Of a DNA stretch of 64,000 nt, positions 4,857-8,759 are shown piece after piece. How positions within the stretch are numbered: the stretch's first letter is position 1; each line of letters opens with the position of its first letter. The stretch comes from Palleronia sp. THAF1 (lineage in GTDB: Bacteria > Pseudomonadota > Alphaproteobacteria > Rhodobacterales > Rhodobacteraceae): positions 3,081,001 to 3,145,000 of the forward strand of contig NZ_CP045420.1 of assembly GCF_009363795.1 (NCBI RefSeq), in the 5' to 3' direction. The notes beneath the pieces were generated by a model that saw only the letters and a program-made list of their open reading frames with translations, had not been told where the DNA came from and ran no database searches. Both the position numbers and the translations under genes were made by a program.

Positions 4857-5177
4857 ATGGCCACCGTTGCCGTCACCGATGACACCTTCGACGCCGAAGT
4901 CCGCCAATCCGACATCCCTGTCGTCGTGGATTTCTGGGCCGAGTGGTGCGGCCCCTGCAAGCAGATCGGCCCCGCGCTGGAAGAGATCTCGAACGAGATG
5001 GACGGCCAGGTCAAGATCGTGAAGGTCAACGTGGACGAGAACCCGAACGCCCCCGCACAGATGGGCGTCCGCGGCATCCCGGCCCTGTTCCTGTTCAAGA
5101 ACGGCGAAGTCGTGTCGAACAAGATCGGCGCTGCGCCCAAAGCCTCGCTGGAAAGCTGGATCAAGGAAGAGATCTGA
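4857..5177 (+). CDS. trxA: Thioredoxin
   Basis: A 106-aa thioredoxin, the cytoplasmic disulfide reductase recycled by thioredoxin reductase. The active site WCGPC is at residues 30-34 and the cis-proline loop reads VRGIPAL. A good ribosome binding site, AAGGAG, lies 6 nt before the ATG. It follows addA by 57 bp and is probably in the same transcription unit. Its natural terminator just downstream has been split by a transposon, so trxA transcripts may now run into the transposase gene. Confidence 0.97.
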
Positions 5178-5199
5178 TCCTGATCTTTCGACCAAAAGC

Positions 5200-5217
5200 A
5201 AAGGGCACCCCGGCGGT
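5200..5217 (+). terminator. Left half of the split trxA terminator
   Basis: Removing the inserted element and one target copy restores a textbook intrinsic terminator: stem arms AAAGGGCACC and GGTGCCCTTT, a 5-nt loop, and a T run that also overlaps the stop codon of the leftward KpsS-like gene. The stem would have served both strands. After insertion the left junction can still form GGCACC/GGTGCC, but it is followed by AGCCCC rather than T residues, so intrinsic termination should be lost. Confidence 0.8.
5210..5217. repeat. Target site duplication, left copy
   Basis: The 8 bp CCGGCGGT directly precede the left terminal repeat of the element and recur directly after the right one at 7850-7857. 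An identical 8-bp direct repeat at both outer edges shows that the element arrived by transposition and has not been rearranged since. Confidence 0.9.
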
Positions 5218-5243
5218 GCCAGCCCCTGACGCTAAATGTTGAA
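5218..5243 (+). repeat. Left terminal inverted repeat of the element
   Basis: The left end begins GCCAGCCCCTGACG and matches the reverse complement of 7824-7849 at 25 of 26 positions; the mismatch is the base after GCCAGCCCCTGACG. It is the presumed transposase binding end. Confidence 0.92.
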
Positions 5244-5254
5244 AAAGTTCTTCG

Positions 5255-5275
5255 GTTGGCCGCATTGCGGCCAAC
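5255..5275. repeat. Subterminal hairpin inside the element's left end
   Basis: Perfect 9-bp arms GTTGGCCGC and GCGGCCAAC are separated by ATT. It lies between the left terminal repeat and the transposase start. It might limit read-through translation into the transposase, as seen with hairpins near the ends of some insertion sequences, or help end recognition. There is no T run, so it is not an intrinsic terminator. Confidence 0.6.
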
Positions 5276-5322
5276 TTTCTCTTCGACACCACGCTTGACC
5301 GTCATCCGAATGGAGAACAAAG

Positions 5323-7038
5323 GTGTCGAGTGTCTCGAAGATATCTTCGGGAGCAGCGGTCGTGCCGCTGGCCCGGAGACTGCCTGCGCCCGCGGCAGGT
5401 GTCGATCTCAACTTCTGCCGCAACCCGGCCTGCGCCCAGTATGGCGTATTGCCAGATCCGTTCAAGCGGCCGAACGGCTCTCCGCCCGCGCCACCTGGCG
5501 TGCCGCGCGGAGCGGTTCCGGGTGGTAAGCACAGAGAGTTCTACAAGTGTCCGGCTTGCCGCACAACCTCCCGGGTGAAGAACAACCGTGCAGTCGTGGA
5601 GGAACACGAGCGGCTACGCCGCCTGCGCGATGTTGATCCCTGTGCGCCGGCCTGCCGCGCTGCGGACTGCGCGAACCAAGGTCTCCCCGTCAGAGAGCAT
5701 CCTGAGCTCTACCAGCGCTTTGGCAGGACGGAGGGTGGCGATCCGCGCTGGCGGTGCAAGGGCTGTGCGAAGACCTTCTCAAGCGGTAAGGCGGCCCGGC
5801 GCCATAAGCGGTCGGACAAGAACCGGCTGGTTCTCGACATGCTGTGCAACGACCTGTCGCTCGCCAAGACCTCGAAGATCTCCGGGTTGTCCTACCGCGA
5901 CATCTATCGGCGGATAGAGTTCTACCACGACCAAGTCAGGAGCTTCGTGGCGCGCCGTGAGGACTTCTCCCGGATCGACTTCGCAGAGGCGGGCTCACGC
6001 TTCGCCACCGATAGCCAGGCACTCACCATCAACTGGCCCAGCCGTAAGCGGCGCTTCCCGGTCGTGTTCCAGCATCTCTGCACCGCGCACGCGCGCTCAG
6101 GGTTCATCATGGAGGCTTCATTCCAACTCGACCCAGAGATCTCGCCGGCAGAAGCAGAGGCCCAGTCTTTTGCGGCCCAAGAGGACCACATCTCGACCGC
6201 CTTCCGGCGCCATGCCCGCATCTGGACGAAGAGCGAGTTCGACGCCCACCTCTTCCGTCTGGCCAAGGCCGCAGGGCTGACGCAGGTGGAAGAATATGGG
6301 CTGCCCGCCACCGGCTCGATGCTGCGCTACGATGTAATGCAGTTTGCGCACGCGATGCGGCTGCGCGATCATATCGGCCAGACGGACGCGCCGTTGATCT
6401 TCGTGATGGATGGAGACGCTGGGCTCAAACAATCCTTCACGACCGTCTTCCAGCCGGCAGTGTCGGCTGGGCGCGCGCATCTGGCTATCATCGACTTCGA
6501 CAAGGCGATGACGAACGACATGCGCAACTGCGTGGTCGCCGACGGTCGCACCGATCTATGTGCCTCTACGGGGCTAACCCCAAATGAGATCAGCTTGATC
6601 CCGTCGGAGTTCTTCGCGAAGATCCTCGACGAGGAGGTCGCTGTCCGGCTTGTCGGGGAGCCGGTCGGAGAATGGTTCCAGTATCCGTTCCCGACAAAGA
6701 GCGAACCCAACAAGCGGGTGCTGTTGATCACCGATCATCCCGGGCTGGAGGCGCGGGATAAGGCGAAGCTGATGCGCCTGGCCACGCTCCGCAGCGTCGA
6801 CAGCTACTTCCACCGCTTCCGCTCGAATGTGCGTTTCGCGAGCCGACCGCAGATCTCGACGAACGGCCCCGGCCGCGTCTGGGGTCGACATCACCTCTAC
6901 GACCCCGTCGTTCTGTCGAAGCTCGTGGAGGTTTACCGCTTCTACCATAACTGGATGGAGCCGGGTGTGGATGGGAAGACCCCCGCGATGCGGATTGGGC
7001 TGGCTCGTGGGCGCATCTATGAGCGAGACCTACTGTAG
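5323..7038 (+). CDS. DDE-type transposase with two zinc ribbons
   Basis: The 571-aa protein has two C4 zinc-ribbon-like pairs: C32/C37 with C76/C79, and C111/C116 with C145/C148 (WRCKGCAKTFS). A helix-turn-helix region follows at about 172-200 (SLAKTSKISGLSYRDIYRR). Probable catalytic acids are D230 (FATDSQ), D363 (FVMDGD) and E536 (LVEVYRFYHNW). The C-terminal GKTPAMRIGL resembles the GKTPAEAAGL end of IS1/IS6-like integrase cores. The start is GTG, with GGAG 7 nt upstream. At about 570 aa it is nearly twice the size of typical IS1595 or IS6 transposases. The transposase role is inferred from domains and from its place within intact inverted repeats. Confidence 0.8.
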   Translation: MSSVSKISSGAAVVPLARRLPAPAAGVDLNFCRNPACAQYGVLPDPFKRPNGSPPAPPGVPRGAVPGGKHREFYKCPACRTTSRVKNNRAVVEEHERLRRLRDVDPCAPACRAADCANQGLPVREHPELYQRFGRTEGGDPRWRCKGCAKTFSSGKAARRHKRSDKNRLVLDMLCNDLSLAKTSKISGLSYRDIYRRIEFYHDQVRSFVARREDFSRIDFAEAGSRFATDSQALTINWPSRKRRFPVVFQHLCTAHARSGFIMEASFQLDPEISPAEAEAQSFAAQEDHISTAFRRHARIWTKSEFDAHLFRLAKAAGLTQVEEYGLPATGSMLRYDVMQFAHAMRLRDHIGQTDAPLIFVMDGDAGLKQSFTTVFQPAVSAGRAHLAIIDFDKAMTNDMRNCVVADGRTDLCASTGLTPNEISLIPSEFFAKILDEEVAVRLVGEPVGEWFQYPFPTKSEPNKRVLLITDHPGLEARDKAKLMRLATLRSVDSYFHRFRSNVRFASRPQISTNGPGRVWGRHHLYDPVVLSKLVEVYRFYHNWMEPGVDGKTPAMRIGLARGRIYERDLL

Positions 7039-7040
7039 AT

Positions 7041-7727
7041 CTACCCTTGGTTCGGCGGCATCGTCGCGTGGTTCTGTCGCGCCAGCACGATGTTCGCGCG
7101 ATCCTCATCGGTTGCTCGTCGTGCAGGCATCCATTGGAACTCGGCCACGCCGATATCTGCCGCCCTCAACGCCTCGACCAGGCGCGCGCTTGCGAAGAGT
7201 CCAAAGTCCCACATCGGGTCGCGCCACAGCTCGACGCCAGTCTCAGCCTCCTCCTCGACGGGGATCGCACCGGGCTTGGTGTCCGGCCACCCTGACACAA
7301 GACCACGGGGACGGTTAATACCCTGGAACATATCCTCCTCCAGCGGCACCAACGTGTCCTTCCGCTCCGAGACATGCAGGTGGTGAAGCGGCCCGAGATC
7401 GCCCGTCGGAATATCCCGTCCGTCGGCATCAACCAGCGGCACGGGCGTGAGGCGGGAGGACCCGAGGTCGAAGTTCCTGAGGACATCCGCCGCCCTTGCG
7501 GAGAAGATGAAGTGCCATTCCATGCGGCGCACATCACCCAGCGCATCCGGGTCGAAACCCGGCGCCGCCACGAGGCGGGTCGGCACTTGGTCATCGCTGA
7601 GTGGCCAGCCGAAGAAGCCTGCATCCATACTGGCGTAGGGACACGGGGACGGGCTTTCGGGGCGGATCGCGAGCTTGAGAGCGGTCTTCCCGCTGACCTG
7701 GCTGAAGTGGATGGTAGAAAGAGTCAC
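7041..7727 (-). CDS. Imm11/DUF1629-like passenger protein
   Basis: A 228-aa protein starting with GTG, convergent with the transposase and inside the same inverted repeats. It has no signal peptide or membrane segment and is acidic. The central part (HFIFSARAADVL, then a stretch ending in LHHLHVSE) recalls Imm11 (MXAN_0049, DUF1629) immunity proteins, which protect against polymorphic toxins; this is a pattern resemblance, not a tested assignment. No toxin gene is nearby. It could be cargo that protects the host, an orphan antitoxin or an unrelated accessory factor of the element. Confidence 0.5.
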   Translation of the reverse strand: MTLSTIHFSQVSGKTALKLAIRPESPSPCPYASMDAGFFGWPLSDDQVPTRLVAAPGFDPDALGDVRRMEWHFIFSARAADVLRNFDLGSSRLTPVPLVDADGRDIPTGDLGPLHHLHVSERKDTLVPLEEDMFQGINRPRGLVSGWPDTKPGAIPVEEEAETGVELWRDPMWDFGLFASARLVEALRAADIGVAEFQWMPARRATDEDRANIVLARQNHATMPPNQG

Positions 7728-7803
7728 GGCGATCGTTTCCAGTAATCGGGATCTGAAGATAGATAGGTAGGAACCAGGTGACGTTCCCCGAAATGAAGAA
7801 GCC

Positions 7804-7820
7804 CGCGAGTTTTGCTCGCG
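7804..7820. repeat. Subterminal hairpin inside the element's right end
   Basis: Arms CGCGAG and CTCGCG are separated by five T/G bases, and next to them GCTCGCGAGC at 7814-7823 is a perfect 10-bp palindrome. It mirrors the hairpin inside the left end, which suggests that both ends carry structured DNA next to the terminal repeats. Confidence 0.5.
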
Positions 7821-7823
7821 AGC

Positions 7824-7849
7824 TTCAACATTTACCGTCAGGGGCTGGC
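7824..7849 (-). repeat. Right terminal inverted repeat of the element
   Basis: The sequence ends CCGTCAGGGGCTGGC and pairs with 5218-5243 with one mismatch in 26. It defines the right boundary of the element. Confidence 0.92.
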
Positions 7850-7857
7850 CCGGCGGT
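7850..7857. repeat. Target site duplication, right copy
   Basis: A second copy of CCGGCGGT, identical to 5210-5217. It is followed by GCCCTTTTT, the right arm and T run of the original terminator. Confidence 0.9.
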
Positions 7858-7865
7858 GCCCTTTT

Positions 7866-8759
7866 TCATGCGCGCCACCCGCATCGCGTCAACGCGGCGA
7901 TGATTTGTGCCTCTGCGTCGGGCGCGGCGGCGCTGATAGCCATTTGGCGGAAGAACCAAAACAAGTAGCGGTCGTAGTCAGGAGGCGCTGAGCGGGCCGC
8001 TTCGAACGCCTGTTCAACCCCCAGATCGACCACGTTCGCAGCGATGTGGTGGAAATCGATCCGACCGAACAGAACCGCCGGTTTGTGAAGGAAGTAACCC
8101 ATCAAGGCGACGGACGAATTCTGGGTGACGACGAGCGAGGCCTTGGGCAGCAGACGGTCCATATCCCCCATGACGATGTTCAAATTGGGATGCGCCGTCT
8201 GCAAATCACGCAGCGTTGCATGGTCAGCCTCATCGTAGTCTTCCTTCGGATGCAAACCCGCAACCACGGGCGCATCGCCGACCTGTTCCAAAGCCCTACG
8301 CAACATCTCGACCGGCGACATCGTCTGGAAGGAACGGGATTGCCGGATGCGCCCTTGCAAGGGAACATAGACCGTTCCATCCCCCGGCCCCGGCGCGGCA
8401 CCGTTCAGATGCTGCTTCCGACGCCGGTCACAAAATGCGGCAGCCTGCGCGCCATCGACCACAACGGGATCGAACCGCGCACGCGCAACCTCGAACTCCC
8501 ACCGCTTGGCCGTCGTCTCGATCCGCCAGAACGGATATAAATAGGCCAGCCGCAGAACGAATTGCCGCGGCCCCAAGGGCGCGTGCATCAGCACCAACGA
8601 ATGGCCGGGACGCTCGGCACTCTTCCGCCGCTCTGCCGCACCATCACCGCACAACTCGATGGCCCCACCCAAAGCGCTACGCAAACGCTCTGTGAAGTTG
8701 TGTTTCCCTGCATGCGCACGCGCCAACAAGGTCGGGTGATAGTGAACGCGCAGGACCAT
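7866..8759 (-). CDS. KpsS/LipB-type capsule polysaccharide domain protein
   Basis: A 297-aa cytoplasmic protein with the hallmarks of the KpsC/KpsS (capsule polysaccharide synthesis) fold, related to Kdo-transferases that build the lipid linker of capsules. Visible signatures are VYVPLQ near residue 131, [13 protein letters not shown] and [24 protein letters not shown]. It stands alone, with no kps transport or other glycosyltransferase genes nearby, so its acceptor is unknown. Its stop codon lies in the T run of the old bidirectional terminator that the upstream element disrupted. It is divergent from hslV. Confidence 0.6.

Follow-up and report, generated by a model that had tools for sequence, protein, structure and literature searches.

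The locus described here raises the question of how a transposon can settle in the terminator between two convergent host genes, and of what then becomes of transcription in the host and in the element. The window, a stretch of 64,000 nucleotides from Palleronia sp. THAF1 (contig NZ_CP045420.1, positions 3,081,001 to 3,145,000), contains a 2632-bp transposon between trxA and a convergent gene. The element and its relatives were compared for their ends, target sites, end hairpins, promoters and cargo. Defined ends, target duplications, targets centred on hairpins and inward-facing hairpins at both ends were present in most copies. Taken as a whole, these features are probably best explained by a loop-targeting family of DDE transposons that would bring its own inward terminators and, in distant members, its own promoter.

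The insertion site between trxA and its convergent neighbour

The duplication CCGGCGGT flanks the element as two exact 8-bp copies, as the first-pass annotation had described, and the terminal repeats (GCCAGCCCCTGACGSTAAATGTTGAA) match at 25 of 26 positions. When the flanks were joined and one copy of the duplication was kept, the sequence AAAGGGCACC-CCGGC-GGTGCCCTTT followed by TT was restored. This site folds into a hairpin with a 10-bp stem and a 5-nt loop on both strands, which agrees with the earlier claim that removing the element and one duplication copy yields a 10-bp-stem terminator with a T run between trxA and the convergent gene. The T run is clean on the forward strand (five T, 7862-7866), whereas that on the reverse strand is interrupted (TTTGCTTTT). 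The description of this terminator as bidirectional is fair for the stem-loop, but the minus-strand side is weaker. The score of the restored hairpin was equalled at 3 of 1500 random positions of the same locus (p = 0.0027) and at none of 600 intergenic positions, where intergenic is defined by crude calls of open reading frames (ORFs). The element occurs as a single copy in its own genome.

Natural empty sites were checked at 19 relatives' loci that hold the convergent gene, drawn from 61 genomes. In 14 of them trxA adjoins that gene, and the two form a recurrent pair within the bacterial family. Each of the 14 spacers between the pair contains an intact terminator-like hairpin followed by a T run. 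Because all natural pair spacers fold in this manner, the ancestral insertion site was very probably a terminator. The name KpsS-like, given to the convergent gene in the first-pass annotation, found no backing, as no Pfam or NCBIfam match was obtained at E ≤ 1. The features of the locus are collected in Table 1.

Table 1. Positions of the element, its parts and the adjoining host genes within the window
Feature	Positions	Strand	Basis
trxA (host)	4857..5177	+	
5' arm AAAGGGCACC of the ancestral (split) terminator, very probable	5200..5209	.	restored site and natural empty sites
Target-site duplication CCGGCGGT, left copy (covers the loop of the ancestral terminator and 3 nt of its 3' arm)	5210..5217	.	
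Whole transposon, 2632 bp	5218..7849	.	terminal inverted repeats 25/26 and 8-bp target duplication
Left terminal inverted repeat GCCAGCCCCTGACGCTAAATGTTGAA	5218..5243	+	
Inward terminator-like hairpin of the element, left end (tail TTCTCTT); would stop transcripts from trxA	5254..5276	+	paired changes in relatives
Transposase, 571 aa; cysteine-rich N-terminal region resembling a zinc ribbon; fold probably RNase H-like (DDE); without a Pfam family	5323..7038	+	
Passenger gene, 228 aa; weak Imm11/DUF1629-like similarity	7041..7727	-	
Inward terminator-like hairpin of the element, right end (tail TTCATTTC); would stop convergent-gene transcripts	7798..7826	-	
Right terminal inverted repeat	7824..7849	-	
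Target-site duplication CCGGCGGT, right copy	7850..7857	.	
Ancestral terminator, very probable: 3' arm GGTGCCCTTT with T run	7855..7866	.	restored site and natural empty sites
Host gene convergent with trxA, unnamed, recurrent trxA neighbour	7866..8759	-	

Hairpin-centred targets across the family

The ends of related elements were searched at 112 loci, and end pairs were selected on matching terminal repeats and a duplication of 8 or 9 bp, with hairpins ignored. A duplication was needed in this search, and members making none would escape it. A clean gap separated 62 loci scoring at least 30.1 from the rest, which scored 26.4 or less. After eight same-site duplicates were dropped, 54 distinct sites were obtained. 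The 50 loci left out gave no confident ends, because the contig stopped, the transposase was broken or incomplete, or the right end could not be located. The transposases at the 54 sites are 21–88% identical to that of the window, and their terminal repeats match at 19–22 of 22 positions. The duplications, of 8 or 9 bp, are perfect at 53 sites and match at 8 of 9 positions at the remaining one (L133). Going by record title or family label, about half of the sites come from the bacterial family to which the window belongs or from roseobacters akin to it.

For each site, the empty target was rebuilt and the best hairpin centred in the duplication was scored, a score of at least 20 being counted as strong. 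A strong hairpin was found at 43 of the 54 sites, compared with 699 of 29,706 intergenic positions (2.4%), intergenic being defined here, too, by the crude ORF calls. With up to 1500 positions drawn at random from each site's own locus as the null, p ≤ 0.05 was reached at 45 sites and p ≤ 0.01 at 38; against intergenic positions only, the respective numbers were 43 and 30, with one site that has no intergenic positions (L160) counted as a miss. The strong sites have stems of 8–14 pairs and loops of 3–6 nt (4 nt in 23), and in 38 of the 43 the duplication is centred no more than 1 nt from the dyad axis. All 43 have a T run of at least 3 on the right or an A run of at least 3 on the left, and 31 have both, without a preferred polarity (T longer in 19, A longer in 18, equal in 6). 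The copy from Bacillota, with 21% identity, is inserted in AAAAAAGCAAAGGGGCCCTTTGCTTTTTT. As controls, 30 IS1595 and 29 IS256 loci of the same bacterial family were analyzed by the same method with a looser cut-off of 27.5. Ends were found for 6 and 7 of them, respectively, and two of the IS256 hits were dropped as plain palindromes (element length −8/−9). In these small sets, hairpin sites numbered 0/6 for IS1595 and 0/5 for IS256.

The targeting of terminator hairpin loops is therefore supported as a family trait by many independent copies. The first-pass annotation had proposed such targeting and had named copies at random sites without hairpins as evidence that would speak against it; with 43 sites centred on a hairpin and 11 not, the proposal stood. 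A second reading of the same sites, which is tentative and less likely than not, is that the transposase reads a linear motif (A-tract, GC arm, GC arm and T-tract as B-form DNA) rather than a cruciform, a single-stranded hairpin or a transcription-linked structure. The left A run and the right T run are the strongest letters shared by the sites, as this reading expects. However, where A/T tracts occur at the right spacing without an element, a hairpin was present at only 225 of 5866 positions (3.8%), compared with 30 of 35 sites under the same rule. As tract-matched positions are rarely hairpins, pairing of the arms adds information. The letters of the arms also differ between hosts. Both points argue against a linear motif; they do not separate a shape-based from a palindromic-sequence reading.

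Hairpins and predicted promoters at the element ends

In the window copy, the inward hairpins begin 36 nt (left) and 23 nt (right) inside the ends, and both were also seen by an independent scan. Across the family, a stem with a T-rich tail was scored within 115 nt of each end and compared with 3094 random windows, mostly coding. Of the 54 elements, 42 had an inward hairpin above 95% of this null at the left end and 44 at the right end; for outward hairpins the numbers were 20 and 17. Among 1962 mostly intergenic windows, 8.9% reached the 95% level, and 3.5% reached a stricter level. This stricter level was attained by 39 of the left ends and 42 of the right ends. Within the window's clade, paired changes are seen in the left stem (pair 12-18: AT 15, GC 8; pair 13-17: CG 11, GT 5, GC 4; pair 4-26: GC 16, TA 3), and the right hairpins vary freely among close relatives. 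The element thus probably exchanges two terminators for the one that it splits, by which its own genes would be insulated. The first-pass claim that the insertion destroys termination on both strands was right in that the host hairpin is split; a net loss of termination is unlikely because the element carries its own inward terminator-like hairpins.

Sub-terminal binding sites are common among transposons, and the left hairpins of the window's clade stand at a near-fixed distance from the end. Both points would suit inward hairpins that are transposase-binding palindromes, or translational hairpins directed against read-through, instead of terminators. This alternative was considered unlikely, as the T-rich tails face inward far more often than outward and the stems differ with paired changes. 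Moreover, in the ten elements compared, the hairpin at the left end does not resemble the one at the right end in sequence, which is not expected of the sites of one protein.

The first-pass annotation was right about the direction in which each element gene runs with respect to the host genes. On this basis it had proposed that landing in the terminator abolishes termination, and that transcripts reading through from the two convergent host genes could express the genes of the element. The splitting of the host terminator, the collinearity of each element gene with its upstream host gene and the failure to find a good promoter of its own in the window copy would all fit such expression. However, inward hairpins intervene between each host gene and the element gene behind it, at both ends here and in most relatives. 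The passenger ORFs of relatives also face both ways (31 of 53 run with the transposase and 22 against it). Accordingly, expression by host read-through was regarded as quite improbable.

Promoters were scanned with sigma-70 weights, with shuffles as the null. Of the 41 elements whose left hairpin is strong, 28 had their best start inside this hairpin (5' arm 15, loop 5, 3' arm 8), where 13.2 were expected from shuffles, and the other 13 had it after the hairpin. In all 12 of the 41 elements that reached a shuffle p ≤ 0.05, the start was inside the hairpin. Examples are TTGAAA-16-TATAAT (L158), TTGATA-18-TATAAT (L136) and TTGAAA-17-TAAAAT (L126), in which the -35 box is the inner terminal repeat. 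In distant members, the transposase promoter is therefore likely to start inside the left hairpin.

In the mechanism proposed for the loop-targeting family, the transposase would cut across the hairpin loop of an intrinsic terminator, with an 8–9-bp stagger at the dyad centre, and insert the element there. This would split the host terminator, whose task would pass to the inward intrinsic terminators that the element carries close to each of its ends, so that host transcripts from either side would stop within ~50–100 nt of entering the element. As an outcome, the ends of the host genes would be preserved and the element genes would be insulated from their neighbours. In distant members, the inner terminal repeat (TGTTGA) would serve as the -35 box of a promoter starting inside the left hairpin; transcripts made by the element itself would then lack all or part of the 5' arm and would escape the terminator that halts incoming transcripts. 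The space after the transposase would hold varying cargo, with genes of anti-phage type in some copies. From the sequences we infer the termination by these hairpins in vivo, the sensing of DNA shape or dyad symmetry by the transposase and the promoter logic. In a stronger form, the family would be built on terminators throughout: the hairpin, as a cruciform or as symmetric DNA, would be sensed, split and replaced by an inward pair of terminators, one of which would have the transposase promoter embedded in it and would let pass only transcripts made by the element itself. To this form we assign an even chance.

Several observations weigh against the proposed mechanism. A strong hairpin is missing at 11 of the 54 sites (L022, L026, L070, L096, L109, L126, L130, L133, L147, L156 and L158), several of which resemble weak or decayed terminators by eye, and one IS256 control (L204) scored 19.2, just below the cut-off of 20. 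No significant inward hairpin was found at 12 left and 10 right ends of the 54 elements, and three elements (L084, L152 and L157) lack one at both ends. The U tracts of both hairpins in the window copy are interrupted (TTCTCTT and TTCATTTC), which leaves room for leakage. A strong left hairpin is absent from 13 elements, of which six reached p ≤ 0.05 in the promoter scan, with the start inside the hairpin in three and not in the other three (L084, L095 and L147). The window copy has no convincing promoter of its own (p = 0.64), and its transposase might for this reason still need leaky read-through.

The explanation without any targeting, in which insertion is random and selection keeps harmless intergenic insertions where terminators are abundant, is very improbable even though every genomic insertion observed has passed selection, since hairpin centres make up 2.4% of intergenic positions versus 43 of 54 sites, the duplication is centred within 1 nt of the dyad in 38 of 43, and the small IS1595 and IS256 sets of the same bacterial family gave 0/6 and 0/5.

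Transposase, relatives and cargo

In an alignment of 59 transposases, the others being 23–92% identical to that of the window, D230, E461 and eight cysteines are invariant, and D363 is kept in 90% or more. Most family members are 550–660 aa long. The AlphaFold2 model, which is of high confidence (pLDDT 89, pTM 0.89), found its best match among solved structures in ISCth4 of the IS256 family (Foldseek E 2.9e-4, TM-score 0.26–0.34). A profile search of the PDB returned nearly all zinc-finger segments and no transposase among the best 60 of 161 matches. The transposase is probably of RNase H-like DDE type, with putative roles for its catalytic residues, and its family is unnamed in the libraries used. 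The window copy shares with this family a homologous transposase with the conserved D230, D363, E461 and cysteine pairs. It also has, together with 42 others of the 54 sites, related repeats (CCAGCC/CAAGCC-type in most), an 8–9-bp duplication and a hairpin-centred target.

With IS1 and IS1595, the family has in common the zinc-ribbon part of the transposase and a duplication of 8–9 bp; IS1595 elements may also carry passengers. The zinc-ribbon part matched the NCBIfam models IS1 (E 1.6e-7) and IS1_IS1595_Zn, both below cut-off. The IS1 family model NF033558 gave 31.4 bits against a cut-off of 100, over residues 131-203 only, which does not place the transposase in IS1. Nor does it belong in IS1595, as there was no Pfam match to DDE_Tnp_IS1595 (PF12762) at E ≤ 1, and the 91.6% obtained by hhalign covered just 53 columns of the zinc-ribbon region. 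Unlike in both families, the transposase is much longer and no similarity to them was found in its catalytic part, and the IS1595 copies tested miss hairpins (0/6). IS256 supplied the best structural match and likewise makes 8–9-bp duplications. However, the TM-score is low, no similarity to Transposase_mut (PF00872) was found (hhalign probability 0.2%) and none of the five IS256 controls reached the hairpin cut-off (one scored 19.2), so that only a weak fold match remains. IS10 and IS50 are protected from impinging transcription, since transcripts from outside fold a structure that is absent from their own transcripts. In those elements a ribosome site is hidden, whereas the present structure resembles a terminator and occurs at both ends.

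The closest precedent in target choice is IS1272/TnSha1 of the IS1182 family in staphylococci. In the cited account, these DNA transposons are described as targeting secondary structures, including terminator hairpins, without primary-sequence specificity, by a blunt cut at the stem that deletes the stem-loop and leaves no target duplication (PMC4923244). The present family, so far as that account describes IS1272, differs by its loop-centred 8–9-bp duplication and its own end hairpins; it is set apart by its mode of insertion, not by a comparison of transposases. The perfect 8-bp duplication of the window copy, in place of a blunt insertion, puts it outside IS1182. As a duplication was required by the end search, the unbiased evidence on this point is confined to the window copy and the clean gap in scores. 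Group IIC introns are also described as inserting at intrinsic terminator motifs (PMC4424553). They are retroelements and ribozymes, while the present element is a DNA transposon, with a DDE-like transposase between terminal repeats and a target duplication at its flanks. ISPpu9 and other REP-targeting insertion sequences are reported to sit within inverted repeats able to form stem-loops; their target, as described there, is one conserved REP sequence, whereas the present family hits arbitrary terminators (PMC8450116). A literature search for the family or for terminator-targeting transposons yielded only the IS1272, group IIC intron and REP-type precedents, and a name in ISfinder is possible. 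Terminator targeting itself is thus already known, and the family is a distinct one that acts like IS1272 in target choice and falls outside its group. It differs from these systems by the loop-centred duplication without deletion, the transposase that fits no named family in the libraries used, the terminator-like hairpins at both ends with a putative promoter within one of them in many members, and the defence-type cargo in some.

Relatives, in counts that include the window's own genome, were found at E ≤ 1e-3 in 11 of the 198 genomes searched from the bacterial family, and at E ≤ 1e-10 in 24 of 390 from the order and 5 of 385 from the class. They also occur on 10 plasmid records, one of which is from Pontibacillus (Bacillota). 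A pattern scan of a species-genome collection gave 140 relatives, of which 80 were kept; the hosts named in the record titles are Rhodobacteraceae-type genera, other alpha-, beta- and gammaproteobacteria, desulfobacteria, geobacteria and a Methylomirabilota bin. No relative was found in the viral contigs searched with the window transposase. In the ten plasmid records, the transposase is annotated as hypothetical protein in eight and as insertion element protein in one, and is without annotation in one. The family is little described and widespread in bacteria.

Some relatives are unusual in structure. On a Candidatus Methylomirabilota contig (L139), the stretch similar to the transposase is ~3.6 kb long (~5100-8730), which looks like a tandem pair of family transposase genes. 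An 88% relative (L028/L094) has a frame shift in mid-protein at codons ~364-365, and may be broken or use a programmed frameshift. Two different, apparently broken members (L031 and L032) lie ~24 kb apart on one contig (G007:C27, ~30 kb and ~54 kb). In Jannaschia rubra, two copies with 92% identity, outside the 54 sites, have left flanks that resemble half-terminators; no right end was found for them, and the contigs stop soon after the transposase.

A further ORF of at least 90 aa is present in 36 of the 54 elements, and not every such ORF need be a gene. The cargo set comprised 53 ORFs of at least 105 aa, of which 41 were put to Pfam and 20 to PADLOC. Defence-type matches (restriction-modification, methylase or abortive-infection-type) were obtained in ten elements: AbiD/Abi_2 (L103), Abi_C (L072) and part of AbiEii (L143); NotI-type (L124) and BsuBI/PstI (L147) restriction genes with a methylase; type IIG-like or methylase genes (L121, L126, L130 and L136); and NYN/HEC-09 (L160). 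The remaining cargo encodes acetyltransferases, DUF6338 or a few further domains, or is without a match. The passenger of the window copy is a possible immunity-type gene, judging from weak matches to Imm11/DUF1629 (E 0.054) and to a DUF1629 protein (30% over 57%); PADLOC gave no match for it. Its weak homologs (28–35% over part of the protein) occur in 13 other genomes of 292. The transposase is the only other long ORF assigned in the window element, and no partner toxin for the passenger is apparent.

If the proposed mechanism is true, the target of this transposon family is a safe harbour defined by structure, general in kind and plentiful in bacteria, and the family has a built-in remedy for insertion damage by which landing without harm would be possible. 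The finding makes the choice of hairpins by a DDE transposase testable and suggests a landing strategy for neutral insertions. Should the family indeed be built on terminators throughout, its insertions would be of a host-neutral, drop-in kind, and it would be a good vehicle for cargo such as anti-phage systems. The family may be an overlooked carrier of defence genes, namely those of restriction-modification and abortive infection.

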